Part shown: piece by piece, positions 5,022 through 54,496 of the stretch
Position numbering within the stretch: position 1 is the stretch's first letter
Layout: each line of letters starts with the position of its first letter
Source of the DNA: Arthrobacter silvisoli
GTDB taxonomy: Bacteria > Actinomycetota > Actinomycetes > Actinomycetales > Micrococcaceae
Assembly: GCF_003369445.1 (NCBI RefSeq)
Contig: NZ_QRCU01000078.1
Location: 1 to 64,000 of the forward strand
Length of the DNA stretch: 64,000 bases
Direction of reading: 5' to 3'
The notes under the pieces: generated by a model
What the model was told of the DNA's origin: nothing
The model's database searches: none
Seen by the model: the letters and a program-made list of their open reading frames with translations, nothing else
Translations under genes and position numbers: made by a program

Positions 5022-6784
<1,763 letters not shown>

Positions 6785-6803
6785 TTCTTCCTGGAGATGA
6801 GCG

Positions 6804-6842
6804 ACGGCGGTTGGCTGGCTTTGGCTGGCCGGCCGCCGTTTT
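6804..6842 (+). terminator. Intrinsic terminator after nrdF
   Basis: ACGGCGG at 6804-6810 pairs with CCGCCGT at 6833-6839, with further pairing possible in between, and the right arm runs into TTTT. The position about 20 bases past the nrdF stop fits termination of the nrd operon. Confidence 0.65.
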
Positions 6843-6910
6843 GCTTGTCGCGGAGCTGGGCGGATCAACCTATCTGCACATCTGAATCCTCTTAATGCAG
6901 ATTCTTGTCT

Positions 6911-7208
6911 ATGACTACAGTCAGCGTGTCGAATGCGCGTGCCCATCTTCCAGCGTTGCTGAACGCTGTTGCTGACGAGCCGGTGTTCATTGAACGGCGG
7001 GGTCACCGGGCGGCGGTGATCATTTCCCCGGAGCGCTACGAACAGATGCTTGACGCGCTCGAGGAGCAGGAGGATGTCGCCGCTTTCGATGCCTCGCTGC
7101 GTACATCCGCAAGAACAGAAAGGAATCCAGGGCGCAATCACGCTGTTGGGACAGGACCCGCGGCCTCCTGCCTCAAGGGCACTGCCCGGCCGTCCGGGTT
7201 ACAGATAA
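6911..7208 (+). pseudogene. Remnant phd/relB-relE toxin-antitoxin module
   Basis: Residues 1 to about 62 from the ATG at 6911 are a normal Phd/YefM-type antitoxin N-terminus (VSNARAHLPALLNAV, then RAAVIISPERYEQML, then EDVAAFDASL). The antitoxin tail is missing. In the next frame, from about 7104 to the TAA at 7206-7208, the reading is RelE toxin-like (KGIQGAITLLGQDPRPPAS then RPGYR), ending where a RelE protein would continue with its catalytic strand. A deletion therefore seems to have joined the antitoxin to the middle of the toxin out of frame. The antitoxin part might still be translated, but no toxin can be made. Confidence 0.7.
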
Positions 7209-31767: not shown

Positions 31768-33792
31768 TTACTCGAGGCCTCGGCGCTTTAGTAGGGGCGT
31801 GATGTCGGCGTCGCGGCCCCGGAAGGCCCGGAAGGAATCCAGTGGGTCACGGCTGTTTCCGCGGGAGAGGAGTTCTGCTCGGAAGGTGTCTCCGTTGGCG
31901 CGGGTGAGGCCGCCGTTTTCCTTGAACCATTCCACAGTGTCCGCATCCAGGACCTCGCTCCAGATGTAGGAGTAGTACCCGGCCGCGTAACCGTCGCCGG
32001 CGAAGATGTGCTGGAAGTACCCCGTGCGGTAACGCGGCGGGATCAGCGGGTGCGCCACGCCGGCGGAGGCGAGGGCCTTCGCCTCGAAGGCGAGGACATC
32101 CTCGGGGATGCCGGACCCGTCCAGTACGTGCCAGGCAAGGTCAAGCAGCGCCGCTCCAAGGTACTCGGTGGTGGCGAAGCCTTCGCCCCAGAGCCGGGAT
32201 TCTTCCAGCCGGGCGACAGTGTCCTGGGGGAGCGGCTCGCCGGTGCGGTAATGGCGGGCATAATTGGCCAGCACCTCCGGCCACATGATCCACATTTCAT
32301 TGACCTGCGATGGGTATTCGACAAAGTCCCGGGGCACTTCCGGTCCGGAGAAGCGCGGGTACGTGACGGCGGAGAGCAGCCCGTGCAGGGCGTGCCCGAA
32401 CTCATGGAACACGGTGCGGACCTCGTCGAGGGTCAGCAGCGTTGCTTCCCCGGCCGGCGGCTTGGAGATGTTCAAGGTATTGATCACCACCGGCTTGGCA
32501 GCCGGCAGCGCCGACTGTTCCACCAGGGAATTCATCCAGGCTCCGCCGCGCTTGGTGTCCCGGGTGTAGTAGTCGCCCAGGAACAGGCCCAGGCCCGTGC
32601 CGTCGGCGTCGAAGACTTCCCACACCCGCACGTCCGGGTGATACCCGGCAAGGTCGCTGCGTTCCTGGAACGTCAGCCCGTAGAGCCTGCCCGCCGCGAA
32701 GAAGACACCCTCCGTGAGCACCCGGTCCAGCTCGAAATACGGCCGCAAGGCCTGTTCGTCCACCTCGTACCGTTCGCGCCGCACCTTGGCGGAGTAGAAA
32801 GCCCAGTCCCACGCCTCCAGAGGGTGACCGGCATTCTCCGCCAGAGCGGCGGCCTCGGCGTCGGCGTTACGGACGGCCGCCGGCGCCAGGCGGTTCAGCA
32901 TGGTCTCGACGGCGGCGAAGTCCGGTGCCGTCTGCCGCTCGACCACCAGTTCGGCATAGTTCGCGAAACCCAGCAAGGCCGCTTTCTCGGCACGCAGCCG
33001 CGCCAAGTCCAGTACCAGCCCGCGGACGTCCAGCGGGCCGCCGTCGGTGCCCCGGGCGATGGATGCCTCGTACAGGCGCCGCCGCAGCTCCCTGTTCTCG
33101 AGCGAGGCCATCGCCGCCTGGTTGCTCGGCTGGATCAGGGTCAGCAGGTACTTGCCGTCGTGGCCGGCTACGCGGGCGGCCTCGGCTGCGCTGGCGATAT
33201 CGTCTTCCGGGAGTCCGACCAGGTCTGCGGCGTCGTCCACCAGGACGGCGGCCGCCTTCATCGCTTCCTTGGTACGCTGGCCGAACTCCGTGCCGAGGCG
33301 CGAGAGCTCCGCGTTGAGCTCCCGCAACCGCTCCTGGCCCGCGGCGTCCAGCTGGATTCCGGACTGCCGGAACTCGCGTAGATACTCTTCCACCAGGCGC
33401 CGCGACTCGGCGCCCTGGCCGGCGGTGTCGATCGCAGCGAAGCGCTCGTAGAGCCCCTTGTTGAGGTAGATCGCGTCCCGGTGCGCAGCCAGCTTGGGCA
33501 TGAGCGCCGTTTCAAGCTCGCGGATGGACTCGCTGGCGTCGGCCGACACCATGGTGAAGAAGGAACTGACCGCACGGCCAAGCAACTGGCCCGAGCGTTC
33601 CATGGCCTCGGCGGTGTTCGAGAAGTCCGCTGGCTTGGGGACGGCGAGGATCGCATCGATTTCGGCAAGCTGCCCGGCCAGTCCGGCCTCGATGGCTTCC
33701 GCGTAATGGCCATCGTCGATCGCTGCGAACGGCGGCAACTGGTACGGAAGGTCGCTGGGTTTGAGCAGGGGATTGCTGCGGGAAATCGTCAT
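31768..33792 (-). CDS. M3-family metallopeptidase (peptidyl-dipeptidase Dcp-like)
   Basis: A 674-residue zinc peptidase. The HExxH motif is in VFHEFGHALHGLL, and the third ligand is the Glu of RDFVEYPSQVNEMW; a long helical N-terminal half closes over the active site. The C-terminal YRTGYFQHIFAGDGYAAGYY is typical of the thimet oligopeptidase/Dcp group. It is cytoplasmic (no signal) and probably degrades short peptides. It lies between pdxS and pdxT on the opposite strand. Confidence 0.93.
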   Translation of the reverse strand: MTISRSNPLLKPSDLPYQLPPFAAIDDGHYAEAIEAGLAGQLAEIDAILAVPKPADFSNTAEAMERSGQLLGRAVSSFFTMVSADASESIRELETALMPKLAAHRDAIYLNKGLYERFAAIDTAGQGAESRRLVEEYLREFRQSGIQLDAAGQERLRELNAELSRLGTEFGQRTKEAMKAAAVLVDDAADLVGLPEDDIASAAEAARVAGHDGKYLLTLIQPSNQAAMASLENRELRRRLYEASIARGTDGGPLDVRGLVLDLARLRAEKAALLGFANYAELVVERQTAPDFAAVETMLNRLAPAAVRNADAEAAALAENAGHPLEAWDWAFYSAKVRRERYEVDEQALRPYFELDRVLTEGVFFAAGRLYGLTFQERSDLAGYHPDVRVWEVFDADGTGLGLFLGDYYTRDTKRGGAWMNSLVEQSALPAAKPVVINTLNISKPPAGEATLLTLDEVRTVFHEFGHALHGLLSAVTYPRFSGPEVPRDFVEYPSQVNEMWIMWPEVLANYARHYRTGEPLPQDTVARLEESRLWGEGFATTEYLGAALLDLAWHVLDGSGIPEDVLAFEAKALASAGVAHPLIPPRYRTGYFQHIFAGDGYAAGYYSYIWSEVLDADTVEWFKENGGLTRANGDTFRAELLSRGNSRDPLDSFRAFRGRDADITPLLKRRGLE

Positions 33793-34071: not shown

Positions 34072-36747
34072 TTAGCCCTGTTTGAAGACGAGGGACATCG
34101 GGGTCGCCTGGGCGCCCTGGCCCTGCGGGTTATCCTTGAAGATCGCCTGGATGGTGTCCTTCGGCAGGTCGGTGTCGTGACCCATCGCCACCACGCCGAG
34201 GTCGTTGGCGTCCATGATCGACGTCCCGGCGAAGTTCGCGGCGTACTCGGCGGGGACCCGCTCCCGGACCAAGGCGCTGATCCGGCGTGCGACCGCCTCG
34301 GGGTCCTTCGGGGCCAGCTTCACCGAGTTGGCGGATGAGCCAAGGCTGTACGGCGTGGCACCGTCGATCGCATTGATGTTGTGGCCGACCACGTCGTAGA
34401 ACACGCCGCTCTTGCCCTGCAGCTTGCCAACCACGCTCGCAGCCGCGGCCTTCACGATCAGCGGCAGGCCCACCTCGTTGATGGCGATCTGCATGGACCA
34501 CGGGCTGCCCAGGCCGATGCCGGCAGGGGTCCGCTTGACGAACTTGCTCAGCACGCGGGCGGCCGGGGTGACCTTGATTTCCCACACCGGGAAGGAACGG
34601 CCCTGGGTGATGGCCACGATCTTCTCGCTCACCAGCAGGTACCACGGGGTCGAAGTGACGGCCTTGCGGGTTGCCTCGTCGGCGGTCTCCAGTCCGTCGA
34701 AGAAGCGGTTCACGTAGGAAAGGACCTCCGGGTCGAGGTCGGTTTCGCGCTTGAACACGCCGGTCTGCAGCGGGTAGCGGCGGAAGGTTTCGCCGCCCAC
34801 GGCTTCCGGAACCGTGATGTCCAGGTTCTTGCCCGGATTCGCCTCGTAGTCGCTCTTGTTCTCCTTGACGTCCGCCGGAGCCTCGTTCGTGTCGATGAAC
34901 TCACGGAACCACAGCTCGACGTTCAGCAGGCGCCAGAAGATCATGGTGTCGGCGTCGTTCTTGTCGTTAAGGTACTCCTCGAATGCCGTCAGGACGGCTT
35001 CGCGGTTCCAGTACGGACGCTCGGCGAAGGAGTTGGACATGAAGATCTTGTACAGCCGCTCCTTCATCAGCTTGAACCACTCGGCCTCGGGAGTGGTGAA
35101 GCCGATCTTGTTCCGGCGGTTGCTGATTTTCTCCGGCAGCAGGCCGCGGGTGGCATCGCGCAGGATCCGCTTGTTCCAGCCGCCCTTGATGATGGCCTCA
35201 TCGGACAGGCTGAAGAGGAACTTGACCACTTCCTTGTCCAGGAACGGCACGCGGCCTTCCAGGGAGAAGCGCATGGTGTTCTTGTCCTCGTAGCGCAGCA
35301 GCGAGGGCAGTGACTTGTGGAAGAGGTCGTCGATCAGGCGCAGCTTCATGTTGTCCGGGATGTTGCTGAAGCTTTCGCCCTTGAAGCGGCCGGTGAAGCT
35401 CTTGTTCAGCAGGGAGGACATGGCCACGGTCTTCTTTGCCGTGAGCTTGCCCTGCAGCCGGAAGCGGCCCAGGCGGTAGAAGATGTCCAGGGAGGAGGTG
35501 GCTTCCTTCAGGAGGGTCTTGTAGTCGCCCTTGGCCTTGAGCTGGCGCAGGTAGGCGAAGTAGTAGGGGATGTAGCCCGCCATCATCTCGTCCGCACCCT
35601 GGCCGTCCAGGAGGACGGTGACGTGCTTGGACGCTTCCTTCATCACGCAGTACTGGGCGTACGGGCCCGAGGAGATGATGGGTTCTTCCATGGTGCGCAC
35701 GAAGTCGTCCAGGTCCGCGGCGAAACCGTCCGGCGTCGGGAGGATCTTGTGCGCCTGGATGTTGCCGCTGCACTTGGCGATCGCGGCGTCGGCGTAGTGC
35801 TCTTCGTCGTTGATCGAGTTCGGGAAGACGGCGCTGAAGGTGTTCTGCTTGGCGCCCAGGGAGTCCGTGGCTTCGGCCTTCTCCTGCATGAGCTTGTTGA
35901 TTGTCACCACGACGGCGGAGGAATCCAGTCCGCCGGACAGGGCCGAGCCCAGCGGGACCTCGGACTTCAGGCGCATGCGGATGGCTTCGGTGAAGCGGGT
36001 GCGGTACTCCTCGGTGACCTCGGGAGTGTAGGGCCGGTTGATCTTGGAAAGCTCTTCGAGTTCCTCCCGCAGCCGGGTGAAGGCGCTGATCGTGTACTTG
36101 CCGGTGGCGTTGTCGATGGTCATCATCTCGCCCGGCTGCAGCTTGGACACGCCGTCGAAGAAGGTCTCTGCGGAGTCGTCGTGGATGCGGTACTGAAGGT
36201 AGCGGTACAGGATGCGCTCGTTGGGCTTGCGTTCGATCTTCCCGCTCTGCAGCAGGGGCTTGATCTCGGAGGCGAAGATGATCTTCGGTGCCTCGTCCGT
36301 GCCCGCGTTGGCCCAGTACACCGGCTTGATGCCGAAGTGGTCGCGGGCCAGGACCGTGACGTTCTTCTTCCTGTCGAGGATGGCAAGGCCGAACATGCCG
36401 TTGAAGCGGTCGAACGCCTCGGTACCCCACTGTTCGTAGGACTGCAGCACCACTTCGGTATCCGACTGGGTGCGGAAGGTACGGCCCAGTCCCTCGAGTT
36501 CGGAGCGGAGCTCCAGGTAGTTGTAGACCTCGCCGTTGTAGACCAGCACGGTGTCGCCGTCGGCGCTGATCATCGGTTCCTGGCCGTGTGCGACGTCGAT
36601 GATGGACAGCCGGCGGTGGGCGAGTCCCACGTTTCCTTCGGTGAAGTAGCCCTCGCCGTCGGGGCCGCGATGCTCGATGCAGTCATTCATGACCTTCAGC
36701 AGAGCTTCGTCTTCCCCAAAACCGTGGTAACCGGCGATTCCGCACAT
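34072..36747 (-). CDS. Asparagine synthetase (glutamine-hydrolysing) fused to a CofE-like F420 gamma-glutamyl ligase domain
   Basis: An 891-residue protein. Residues 1-210 are a class II glutaminase (C2 of MCGIAGYHG, then IEHRGPDGEG, LAHRRLSIID and YNGEVYNY). Residues about 240-615 are the AMP-forming synthetase domain with the PP-loop SGGLDSSAVV near residue 270. Ordinary AsnB stops there. After a linker, residues about 690-885 read like the coenzyme F420-0:L-glutamate ligase family (LLVSEKIVAITQGRSFPVWE, GIGLGSPWSMQIAINEVGLP, SGVFYDVVGHNINAIDG, IMDANDLGVVAMG, DNPQGQG). The frame is uninterrupted. The product could be an amidated or glutamylated metabolite, not only asparagine; that is inference. 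Start ATG has AGAGGTAGGCACT upstream. Confidence 0.88.
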   Translation of the reverse strand: MCGIAGYHGFGEDEALLKVMNDCIEHRGPDGEGYFTEGNVGLAHRRLSIIDVAHGQEPMISADGDTVLVYNGEVYNYLELRSELEGLGRTFRTQSDTEVVLQSYEQWGTEAFDRFNGMFGLAILDRKKNVTVLARDHFGIKPVYWANAGTDEAPKIIFASEIKPLLQSGKIERKPNERILYRYLQYRIHDDSAETFFDGVSKLQPGEMMTIDNATGKYTISAFTRLREELEELSKINRPYTPEVTEEYRTRFTEAIRMRLKSEVPLGSALSGGLDSSAVVVTINKLMQEKAEATDSLGAKQNTFSAVFPNSINDEEHYADAAIAKCSGNIQAHKILPTPDGFAADLDDFVRTMEEPIISSGPYAQYCVMKEASKHVTVLLDGQGADEMMAGYIPYYFAYLRQLKAKGDYKTLLKEATSSLDIFYRLGRFRLQGKLTAKKTVAMSSLLNKSFTGRFKGESFSNIPDNMKLRLIDDLFHKSLPSLLRYEDKNTMRFSLEGRVPFLDKEVVKFLFSLSDEAIIKGGWNKRILRDATRGLLPEKISNRRNKIGFTTPEAEWFKLMKERLYKIFMSNSFAERPYWNREAVLTAFEEYLNDKNDADTMIFWRLLNVELWFREFIDTNEAPADVKENKSDYEANPGKNLDITVPEAVGGETFRRYPLQTGVFKRETDLDPEVLSYVNRFFDGLETADEATRKAVTSTPWYLLVSEKIVAITQGRSFPVWEIKVTPAARVLSKFVKRTPAGIGLGSPWSMQIAINEVGLPLIVKAAAASVVGKLQGKSGVFYDVVGHNINAIDGATPYSLGSSANSVKLAPKDPEAVARRISALVRERVPAEYAANFAGTSIMDANDLGVVAMGHDTDLPKDTIQAIFKDNPQGQGAQATPMSLVFKQG

Positions 36748-36856: not shown

Positions 36857-37537
36857 GTGAACTATCCGCAGATTTCCTCCCCGCTGGTTGGTGTGCTCGC
36901 GCTGCAGGGCGACGTGCGCGAACACCTCCACGCCCTCGAAGCAGTGGGCGCACGCGCCGTCGGCATCCGCCGCCCGTCGGAACTTGCCGCCGTCGACGGC
37001 CTGGTGATTCCCGGCGGTGAGTCGACCACGATCGACAAGCTGTCCCGCATCTTCGAACTCGCCGAACCGATCAAGGAACGGATCGCCGGCGGAATGCCGG
37101 TGTACGGCTCCTGCGCCGGCATGATCCTGCTGGCCAACGAGATCGCGGACCCGGCCAAGGACCTGGAAGGCCGGCCGCAGCAAAGCTTCGGCGGCCTGGA
37201 CATCACGGTGCGCCGCAACGCCTTCGGCCGGCAGCGCGAATCCTTCGAGACCGATCTGGACTTCAAGGGCCTGGACTTCAGCGCGGGCGAGGCGGGCGTG
37301 GACCCGGTGCACGCCGTGTTCATCCGCGGCCCGTGGGTGGAAAGGGTTGGCCCGGAGGTCGAAATCCTGGCCCAGGTGGACCCGGATAAGGCACGCCACA
37401 CGGACACTTTGCACGGGTTGGCTAGAATTGTTGCCGTGCGCTCCGGCAAGTTGCTGGCCACCTCCTTCCATCCGGAAGTGACGGGCGAGAAGCGCATCCA
37501 CGAACTTTTCATTCGAATGATCAGAGGAGAAGCGTAA
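36857..37537 (+). CDS. pdxT: Pyridoxal 5'-phosphate synthase, glutaminase subunit PdxT
   Basis: A 226-residue class I glutaminase that feeds ammonia to PdxS. C86 lies in [10 protein letters not shown], and the His-Glu pair is in SFHPEVTGE near the C-terminus; GGESTTI is the usual glutamine-site loop. Slightly longer than usual because of an insert around residue 125. The GTG start lies 110 bases from the divergent asparagine synthetase fusion. yebC follows by four bases. Confidence 0.95.
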
Positions 37538-52714: not shown

Positions 52715-54496
52715 GTGCTGCGCACACATGACCTCGGATCGCTGCGTTCCGAGCACATTGGACAGACCGTTACCCTGGCAGGCTGGGTGGGCCGCCGCCG
52801 TGACCACGGTGGTGTGGCCTTCGTCGACCTCCGGGACGCTTCCGGTGTCGCCCAGGTGGTCGTCCGCGAGGAAGAGGTCTTCCACGGGCTCCGCAACGAA
52901 TACGTGCTGCAGGTCATCGGCACCGTGAACAAGCGGCCCGAAGGCAACGAAAACCCGGCCTTGGCCACGGGCGAGATCGAGGTCATCGCCGAAAAGGTCG
53001 TGATCCTCAACACCTCGGACCCGCTGCCTTTCCAGATCGACGAGCACGTCGAGGTCGGCGAAGAGGCCCGCCTCAAGCACCGTTACCTGGACCTGCGCCG
53101 GCCGGGTCCCGCCCGCAACCTGCGCCTGCGTTCTGAAGCGAACCGGGTGGCCCGCGAACTGCTGCACCAGCAGGGATACGTGGAGATCGAAACCCCCACC
53201 CTGACGCGCTCGACGCCGGAAGGCGCCCGCGACTTCGTGGTCCCCGCCCGCCTGGCGCCGGGTTCCTGGTACGCCCTGCCGCAGTCCCCGCAGCTTTTCA
53301 AGCAGCTGCTGCAGGTAGGCGGCTTCGAGAAGTACTACCAGATCGCCCGCTGCTACCGCGACGAGGACTTCCGTGCGGACCGCCAGCCCGAGTTCACCCA
53401 GCTGGACATCGAGGCGAGCTTCGTTGAGCAGGACGACATCATCGAGCTCGGCGAAGCCCTGATCAAGGTGCTCTGGAAACTCATCGACGTCGAGGTTCCC
53501 ACCCCGATCCGCCGCATGACCTACTGGGACGCGATGGCCAAGTACGGCTCCGACAAGCCGGACCTTCGCTTCGGCCTCGAGCTGACCGAACTGACGGACT
53601 TCTTCAAGGACACCGACTTCGGTGTCTTCAAGGCTCCTTACGTCGGCGCCGTCGTCATGCCCGGTGGCGCTTCGCAGCCCCGCCGCACGCTGGATGCCTG
53701 GCAGGAATGGGCCAAGCAGCGCGGCGCCAAGGGCCTGGCCTACGTGCTGTACAAGGAAGACGGCGAGCTCGCCGGCCCCGTGGCGAAGAACCTGACCGAC
53801 GCCGAGCGGGCCGGCCTGGCCGATGCCGTCGGCGCCAAGCCTGGCGACTGCATCTTCTTTGCCGCCGGCGAAGCGTCCCCGTCCCGTGCGCTGCTCGGTG
53901 CGGCCCGTGTGGAGATCGGCCACCGCACCGGCCTGATCGACCCCAAGGACTGGGCCTTCGTCTGGATCGTCGACGCCCCGATGTTCGAACCCGTTGCCCA
54001 GGCCACCGCCTCCGGCGACGTCGCCCTCGGCTACTCTGCCTGGACTGCCGTGCACCACGCGTTCACCTCGCCGAAGCCGGAATTCCTGGACAACTTCGAC
54101 GAGAACCCGGAAGCGGCCCTGGCCTACGCCTACGACATCGTGTGCAACGGCAACGAGATCGGCGGCGGGTCCATCCGTATCCACCAGGGCGACATCCAGG
54201 AACGTGTCTTTAAGGTCATGGGCATCAGCCACGAAGAAGCACAGGAGAAGTTCGGCTTCCTCCTGGAGGGCTTCAAGTACGGTGCACCCCCGCACGGCGG
54301 CATCGCCCTCGGCTGGGACCGCGTTGTCTCGCTGCTGGCCGGTGTCGACTCGATCCGCGATGTCATCGCCTTCCCGAAGTCCGGTGGCGGCTTCGACCCG
54401 CTGACCGCCGCGCCTGCGCCGATCACGGCCCAGCAGCGCAAGGAAGCGGGCGTGGACTTCAAGCCCGAGGCCAAGCCGGCAGCCACCTCGGAATAG
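52715..54496 (+). CDS. aspS: Aspartate--tRNA(Asp/Asn) ligase
   Basis: A 593-residue class II synthetase of the bacterial type. The N-terminal OB anticodon-binding domain ([20 protein letters not shown]) precedes motif 2 ([20 protein letters not shown]), a GAD insertion (about residues 280-420), and motif 3 ([19 protein letters not shown]). Many actinobacterial AspRSs are non-discriminating and work with GatCAB; this cannot be settled here. The GTG start follows AAAGGAATGCT. Confidence 0.95.

Follow-up and report, generated by a model that had tools for sequence, protein, structure and literature searches.

The window, a 64,000-nucleotide stretch of DNA from the soil bacterium Arthrobacter silvisoli, carries on its minus strand a gene (34072..36747) whose 891-aa product joins an asparagine synthetase (AsnB) to a domain resembling the coenzyme F420 ligase CofE. 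An earlier note on this DNA had proposed such a fusion, and its reality is borne out by the uninterrupted open reading frame, by the Pfam domains and by recurrence across named Micrococcaceae. The N-terminal glutamine amidotransferase domain (GATase_7/GATase_6; residues 1–170; 36238..36747, minus strand) has Cys2 as its nucleophile; the Pfam GATase_7 match spans residues 44–166 (E 8e-43), and the MCGIAG, HRRLSII, NGE and SDTE motifs are retained in the alignment. It is followed by the Asn_synthase (ATP pyrophosphatase) domain at residues 248–615 (34903..36006, minus strand; PF00733, E 5e-66), in which the PP-loop SGGLDS at residues 271–276 (35920..35937, minus strand) was located by direct reading and alignment. 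The Cys nucleophile (MCGIAG) and the PP-loop (SGGLDSS) are both in place, as the note had stated. The CofE-like domain, delimited by predicted structure, a profile search of the PDB and hhalign, occupies residues 641–891 (34075..34827, minus strand). Its start (around residue 641) was placed where the tail aligns with its relatives, resulting in a length of about 250 residues; thus, the CofE resemblance noted earlier stood, while the length of about 195 residues did not. Within this domain lie Asp795 of an AIDG motif (34363..34365, minus strand), Asp846 of an MDAND motif (34210..34212, minus strand) and, recognized by conservation, the C-terminal motif NPxGQ (residues 873–877; 34117..34131, minus strand), followed by TP (882–883). 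Two flanking genes were considered to be outside the system, namely pdxT (36857..37537, plus strand), a conserved neighbor that served as synteny anchor, and an M3-type peptidase gene on the other side (31768..33792, minus strand); the name of the former and the family of the latter were assigned by eye, and the latter was identified as a conserved neighbor by synteny. No paper treating CofE and asparagine synthetase together was found among the open-licence literature.

The C-terminal domain and its relation to CofE

The Pfam model F420_ligase (PF01996, gathering score 25 bits) matched the whole fusion protein at residues 704–832 (E 4.7e-4, 20.1 bits), with scores of 23.5 bits for the tail alone and of 28–45 bits for its relatives; all 14 aligned tail relatives matched this model, at best with an E of 1.9e-7. 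A profile of the wider family (17 diverse homologues) retrieved the solved Archaeoglobus fulgidus CofE from the PDB (E 8e-7), and no CofE was found when the PDB was searched with the Micrococcaceae tail alone. The full-length fusion model (mean pLDDT 54.7) was left out of the analysis; the AF2 model of the CofE-like domain (pLDDT 81) matched CofE 2PHN with Z 14.0 and rmsd 3.5 over 187 residues. CofE entries were the only structure matches (Z 14.0, 13.6 and 13.2), followed by an unrelated row at 3.8, and Foldseek returned CofE with an E of 2e-7. Comparison by hhalign with true CofE/FbiB domains, which had been taken from weakly matching loci, yielded a probability of 98.2%. The tail is therefore CofE-like in sequence as well as in predicted fold. 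In hhalign, Asp795 aligned with the Asp of the CofE motif AGxDxSN, and Asp846 aligned, also in hmmsearch, with the Asp of (I/V)xDT/DS; we take these CofE counterparts to be the metal-binding aspartates. Both Asp residues, as well as N, P, G, T and P of the NPxGQ...TP motifs, are invariant in the 17 diverse homologues.

The curated CofE model TIGR01916 (cut-off 180.65 bits) was matched neither by the fusion protein nor by its tail, and scored 35 bits with a standalone partner gene and 23 bits with a distant fusion. True CofE/FbiB proteins formed a separate group, with about 30 bits against 240–300. Judged from model and sequence, the domain uses the CofE scaffold, yet stands outside true CofE. 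With the N-terminal domain of CofE/FbiB it shares the predicted fold, the two aligned Asp residues and the LxPxDP motif, and the SxKxxSxxxGR-like strand of CofE reads SEKIVAITQGR in the fusion tail. Unlike CofE, the tail is devoid of much of the stretch that follows the second Asp, has about 80 residues of other sequence ahead of the first one, falls below every CofE equivalog cut-off, and is joined to or paired with AsnB in the absence of an F420 pathway.

The AsnB half and the supply of asparagine

The fusion provides the single Asn_synthase match in the whole genome. It scored 402 bits against the generic asparagine synthase model TIGR01536 (cut-off 267), and alignment showed that it has kept the Cys2 glutaminase domain with its glutaminase residues, the PP-loop and the active-site Lys in common with AsnB. 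It differs from AsnB by its added C-terminal ligase domain, by its placement in a separate clade and by Gln383 (35599..35601, minus strand), which, in an alignment with 1CT9 and more than 50 AsnB proteins, replaces the Glu of the aspartate site, Glu348 in E. coli AsnB and Glu364 in human ASNS. The Gln is common to the entire clade, and the E364Q variant of human ASNS has no activity with aspartate (PMC6748925). No AsnRS match above the cut-off was found in the genome, the best match being the AspRS of this window and another frame probably encoding LysRS. As GatB is present and AsnRS absent, asparagine is presumably made on the tRNA by transamidation; moreover, 111 of the 197 sampled Micrococcaceae genomes gave no Asn_synthase match. 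On this genome evidence, the AsnB of the fusion is not required for asparagine, and the protein, although annotated as AsnB, is probably something other than a plain asparagine synthetase, as the earlier note had suspected. That note had also considered that every AsnB of the genus may carry the tail along with ordinary asparagine synthesis. The first part held, since the AsnBs of this clade all bear the tail in the 197 sampled Micrococcaceae genomes, whereas the ordinary asparagine part was contradicted. The AspRS gene of the window (52715-54496) probably encodes the non-discriminating type, given that the genome yielded no AsnRS.

A Gln at the position of Gln383 was also seen in the alignment with amidotransferases of the NAGGN system, which act not on aspartate but on a dipeptide that a partner enzyme has formed (PMC8070244). 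Like the fusion, the NAGGN system (AsnO plus Ngg) combines an AsnB-type amidotransferase bearing Gln with a peptide-forming enzyme, the latter being separate. The partner in that system is, however, an acetyltransferase/peptide synthase instead of a CofE-like ligase, and its AsnB belongs to a different clade. The fusion scored 318 bits against the NAGGN amidotransferase model TIGR03104 (cut-off 570), compared with about 1000 bits for true members.

Distribution, linkage and gene context

The tail was detected in 45 of the 197 sampled Micrococcaceae genomes, as a full fusion in 43 and lacking a usable AsnB in two (genus g14). In the genus of the A. silvisoli genome itself, only this one of 12 sampled genomes has the fusion; named carriers include Sinomonas, some Arthrobacter, Psychromicrobium and Tersicoccus. 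Across the family the fusion is most often 886–901 aa long, and nearly all named Micrococcaceae loci have the neighborhood ruvCAB-yebC-pdxT-fusion-M3 peptidase in common. Since this gene order is shared across genera, the gene is old in Micrococcaceae, and its patchiness is read as frequent loss. Recent horizontal gain within the family was ruled out by the shared pdxT-fusion-M3 peptidase order, and a plasmid search found no match. Fusions are present in other actinobacterial groups as well. A complete AsnB/CofE-like fusion, followed by a gene reading as dapA, was also found in a sequence filed as 'Bacteriophage sp.' from human faeces (L218:4844-7724; MT835656.1, 73% GC), which appears to be bacterial DNA wrongly assigned to a phage.

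In a tree of 54 AsnB proteins, all fused or paired AsnBs fell into one clade (support 99/97), apart from a 36-row group of other actinobacterial AsnBs. The two halves are also linked where they are encoded separately: six genomes of genus g202 have them as two genes that adjoin or overlap, and a seventh has the CofE-like gene in the corresponding position, next to a neighbor that the simple ORF finder did not call. The g202 pair is inserted between yggT and divIVA in an ftsZ-yggS-sepF-proC-yggT-[asnB-cofE]-divIVA cluster (yggS denoting a yggS-like gene). Distant standalone or TPR-fused CofE-like proteins are encoded next to or near murJ, the gene for the lipid II flippase, at four loci from three families. 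Both contexts point to the cell envelope, unlike the genes that surround the fusion in the window.

A different arrangement was found in two genomes, G124 and G044, where both the GATase domain and the PP-loop have disappeared from the fusion gene, leaving a complete CofE-like domain and a C-terminal AsnB stub; neither genome was listed with an Asn_synthase match. The catalase of G124 is identical to PDB 1GWE, which we take to be the Micrococcus luteus enzyme, and hence G124 to be M. luteus. In the two Micrococcus loci (L060, L061) the stub comprises about 260 residues devoid of the catalytic motifs. Between the two Micrococcus genomes, dN/dS was about 0.37 for the stub and about 0.23 for the CofE-like part. 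As the stub is constrained too, and may still serve in structure or binding, selection provides a modest argument for the CofE-like part.

A possible role in peptidoglycan precursor modification

M. luteus murein bears a plain, unamidated glycine on the α-carboxyl of D-Glu. According to what Katz et al. reportedly found in 1967, its addition is ATP-dependent, tRNA-independent and takes place at the lipid stage. Interschick et al. are said to have described, in 1970, glycinamide in the murein of Arthrobacter atrocyaneus. The latter organism is now Sinomonas atrocyanea, and both S. atrocyanea genomes that we found (L040, L045) encode the intact fusion. Loss of the amidotransferase half together with plain glycine, and retention of both halves together with the amide, is what a two-step model predicts, although this match comprises two organisms. 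Glycine on the D-Glu α-carboxyl also occurs in another actinomycete, Intrasporangium calvum (PMC3035309).

The two halves probably act jointly to make some amidated amino-acyl or peptidyl product. As to its identity, we tentatively favor, at slightly less than even chances, an enzyme working in two steps, by which an amino acid is added to the α-carboxyl of D-Glu in a cell-wall precursor and is amidated. The CofE-like domain would use an NTP to form an acyl phosphate on this carboxyl group, which would then be attacked by the amine of the incoming amino acid, with glycine as the probable candidate; CofE performs a comparable reaction with glutamate (PMC10861534). The AsnB domain would adenylate the free carboxylate of the glycine and capture glutamine-derived ammonia. 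The acceptor would be the stem D-Glu in lipid I/II or in a soluble precursor, and the product D-Glu(Gly-NH2) or a comparable amide of an amino acid. Loss of the AsnB half, as in M. luteus, would leave plain glycine. More specifically, though somewhat less likely than not, the CofE-like domain may be the missing enzyme that ligates glycine, independently of tRNA, in peptidoglycan of the Micrococcus type, and its fused AsnB partner the maker of glycinamide. Substrate, order of steps and the cell-wall role are what we infer here. The 'tailored small molecule' of the earlier note may be narrowed to a peptidoglycan precursor by the gene order and by the contrast between M. luteus and Sinomonas.

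The wall reading would further lead one to expect that MurT/GatD is absent from M. luteus, and no candidate was found by P-loop motif in 1.6 of 2.5 Mb (64%) of the genome, where the P-loop frames resemble FolC, MurD, MurF and MurE. The examined 64% includes recR and dnaX, beside which MurT/GatD is encoded in mycobacteria. In Gram-positive walls, LtsA/AsnB and MurT/GatD depend on glutamine to amidate carboxylates of the stem peptide (PMC8554201, PMC3266927), akin to the role proposed for the fusion. They differ in that LtsA acts on meso-DAP and MurT/GatD directly on D-Glu, both without a ligase domain, whereas the fusion would amidate an added amino acid. Several observations argue against a wall function. 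CofE uses GTP, whereas the glycine reaction of M. luteus reportedly depends on ATP; the Micrococcaceae gene is flanked by pdxT and a peptidase gene, outside any wall operon; and the murJ-adjacent CofE-like relatives are distant and lack AsnB. In addition, two sampled genomes matched in a family of the same order, f4, which may be Microbacteriaceae. In Microbacteriaceae, walls of the B type likewise start from the α-carboxyl of D-Glu, so that, if f4 is indeed this family, the finding of only two matching genomes would count against the wall reading.

AsnB and CofE-like domain could alternatively have a soluble metabolite as their substrate, with no relation to the wall. As in the NAGGN system, the CofE-like domain would ligate and the AsnB domain amidate the C-terminus of the product, yielding an amidated gamma-glutamyl or amino-acyl compound that serves as osmolyte or signal. 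We regard this as rather unlikely but worth serious consideration, since the Glu-to-Gln change is common to NAGGN amidotransferases whose partner forms a peptide bond, since a gene that is patchily distributed and was lost several times in different genera would fit a dispensable metabolite, and since no obvious wall gene adjoins the fusion in the window. However, the score against the NAGGN model (318 versus 570 bits) does not favor this scheme, which also leaves unexplained the division-cluster and murJ neighborhoods as well as the murein match of M. luteus and Sinomonas. That the protein is an ordinary asparagine synthetase with an acquired regulatory or structural CofE-like domain appears improbable. 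Its TIGR01536 score (402 versus 267 bits), its retained glutaminase residues, PP-loop and active-site Lys and its status as sole Asn_synthase of the genome would be in line with this notion, but the catalytic Glu is replaced clade-wide by the Gln that inactivates human ASNS, asparagine is obtainable on tRNA, relatives live without AsnB, and M. luteus has kept only the CofE half.

The last point, with a dN/dS of about 0.23 for that half, likewise makes it very unlikely that the CofE-like domain has lost its catalytic activity and survives as a remnant merely holding AsnB in place. The part of CofE that extends from the second Asp to the C-terminus is in large measure missing, which would be compatible with such a remnant, but the aligned Asp residues, NPxG and TP are invariant in the 17 diverse homologues. 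Hardly credible, despite the CofE fold and sequence relation, is a role as gamma-glutamyl ligase in making coenzyme F420 or some related deazaflavin, with the AsnB half supplying ammonia or glutamate. The earlier note had seen no F420 biosynthesis genes in the window, and for CofD this extends to the whole genome (G000): a whole-genome profile search found no CofD, there is no second F420_ligase elsewhere in the genome, and CofD exceeded the cut-off in 2 of 61 family genomes. The standalone partner stays far below the CofE equivalog cut-off (35 versus 180.65 bits), the tail gave no match at all, and true CofE/FbiB proteins group separately. A role in F420 metabolism was ruled out by the missing CofD and the low CofE model scores, and the relation to F420 is structural only.

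We know of no gene identified so far for attaching or amidating an amino acid on cell-wall precursors in this way. If the preferred wall reading is correct, the fusion would represent the first enzyme of the CofE fold to act on a precursor of the cell wall. The lipid II stem would then be open to one more kind of modification, in addition to those by Fem transferases and ATP-grasp ligases and to amidation by MurT/GatD or LtsA. The wall reading would assign a function to a CofE-like family that is named after F420 in Pfam even though the F420 pathway is absent from bearers like the present one, and would provide a testable candidate gene for an old activity, the addition of glycine to the M. 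luteus peptidoglycan precursor.

Some of the distant relatives deserve mention in their own right. In L100:6684-8093, L102 (~6360-6980) and L103:3413-5023, the CofE-like domain lies behind a long N-terminal part that consists of TPR repeats according to Pfam (L100) or looks similar by eye (L102, L103); murJ is close to the CofE-like genes of L100 and L102. In two small genomes from two genera with identical gene order (L098:4215-6958, L099:6409-9112), a standalone CofE-like gene is located by genes for a class-III aminotransferase and a HAD phosphatase and by dnaX. In L101:6153-8326, an Orn/Lys/Arg decarboxylase gene overlaps a standalone CofE-like gene, which suggests a polyamine-linked variant.
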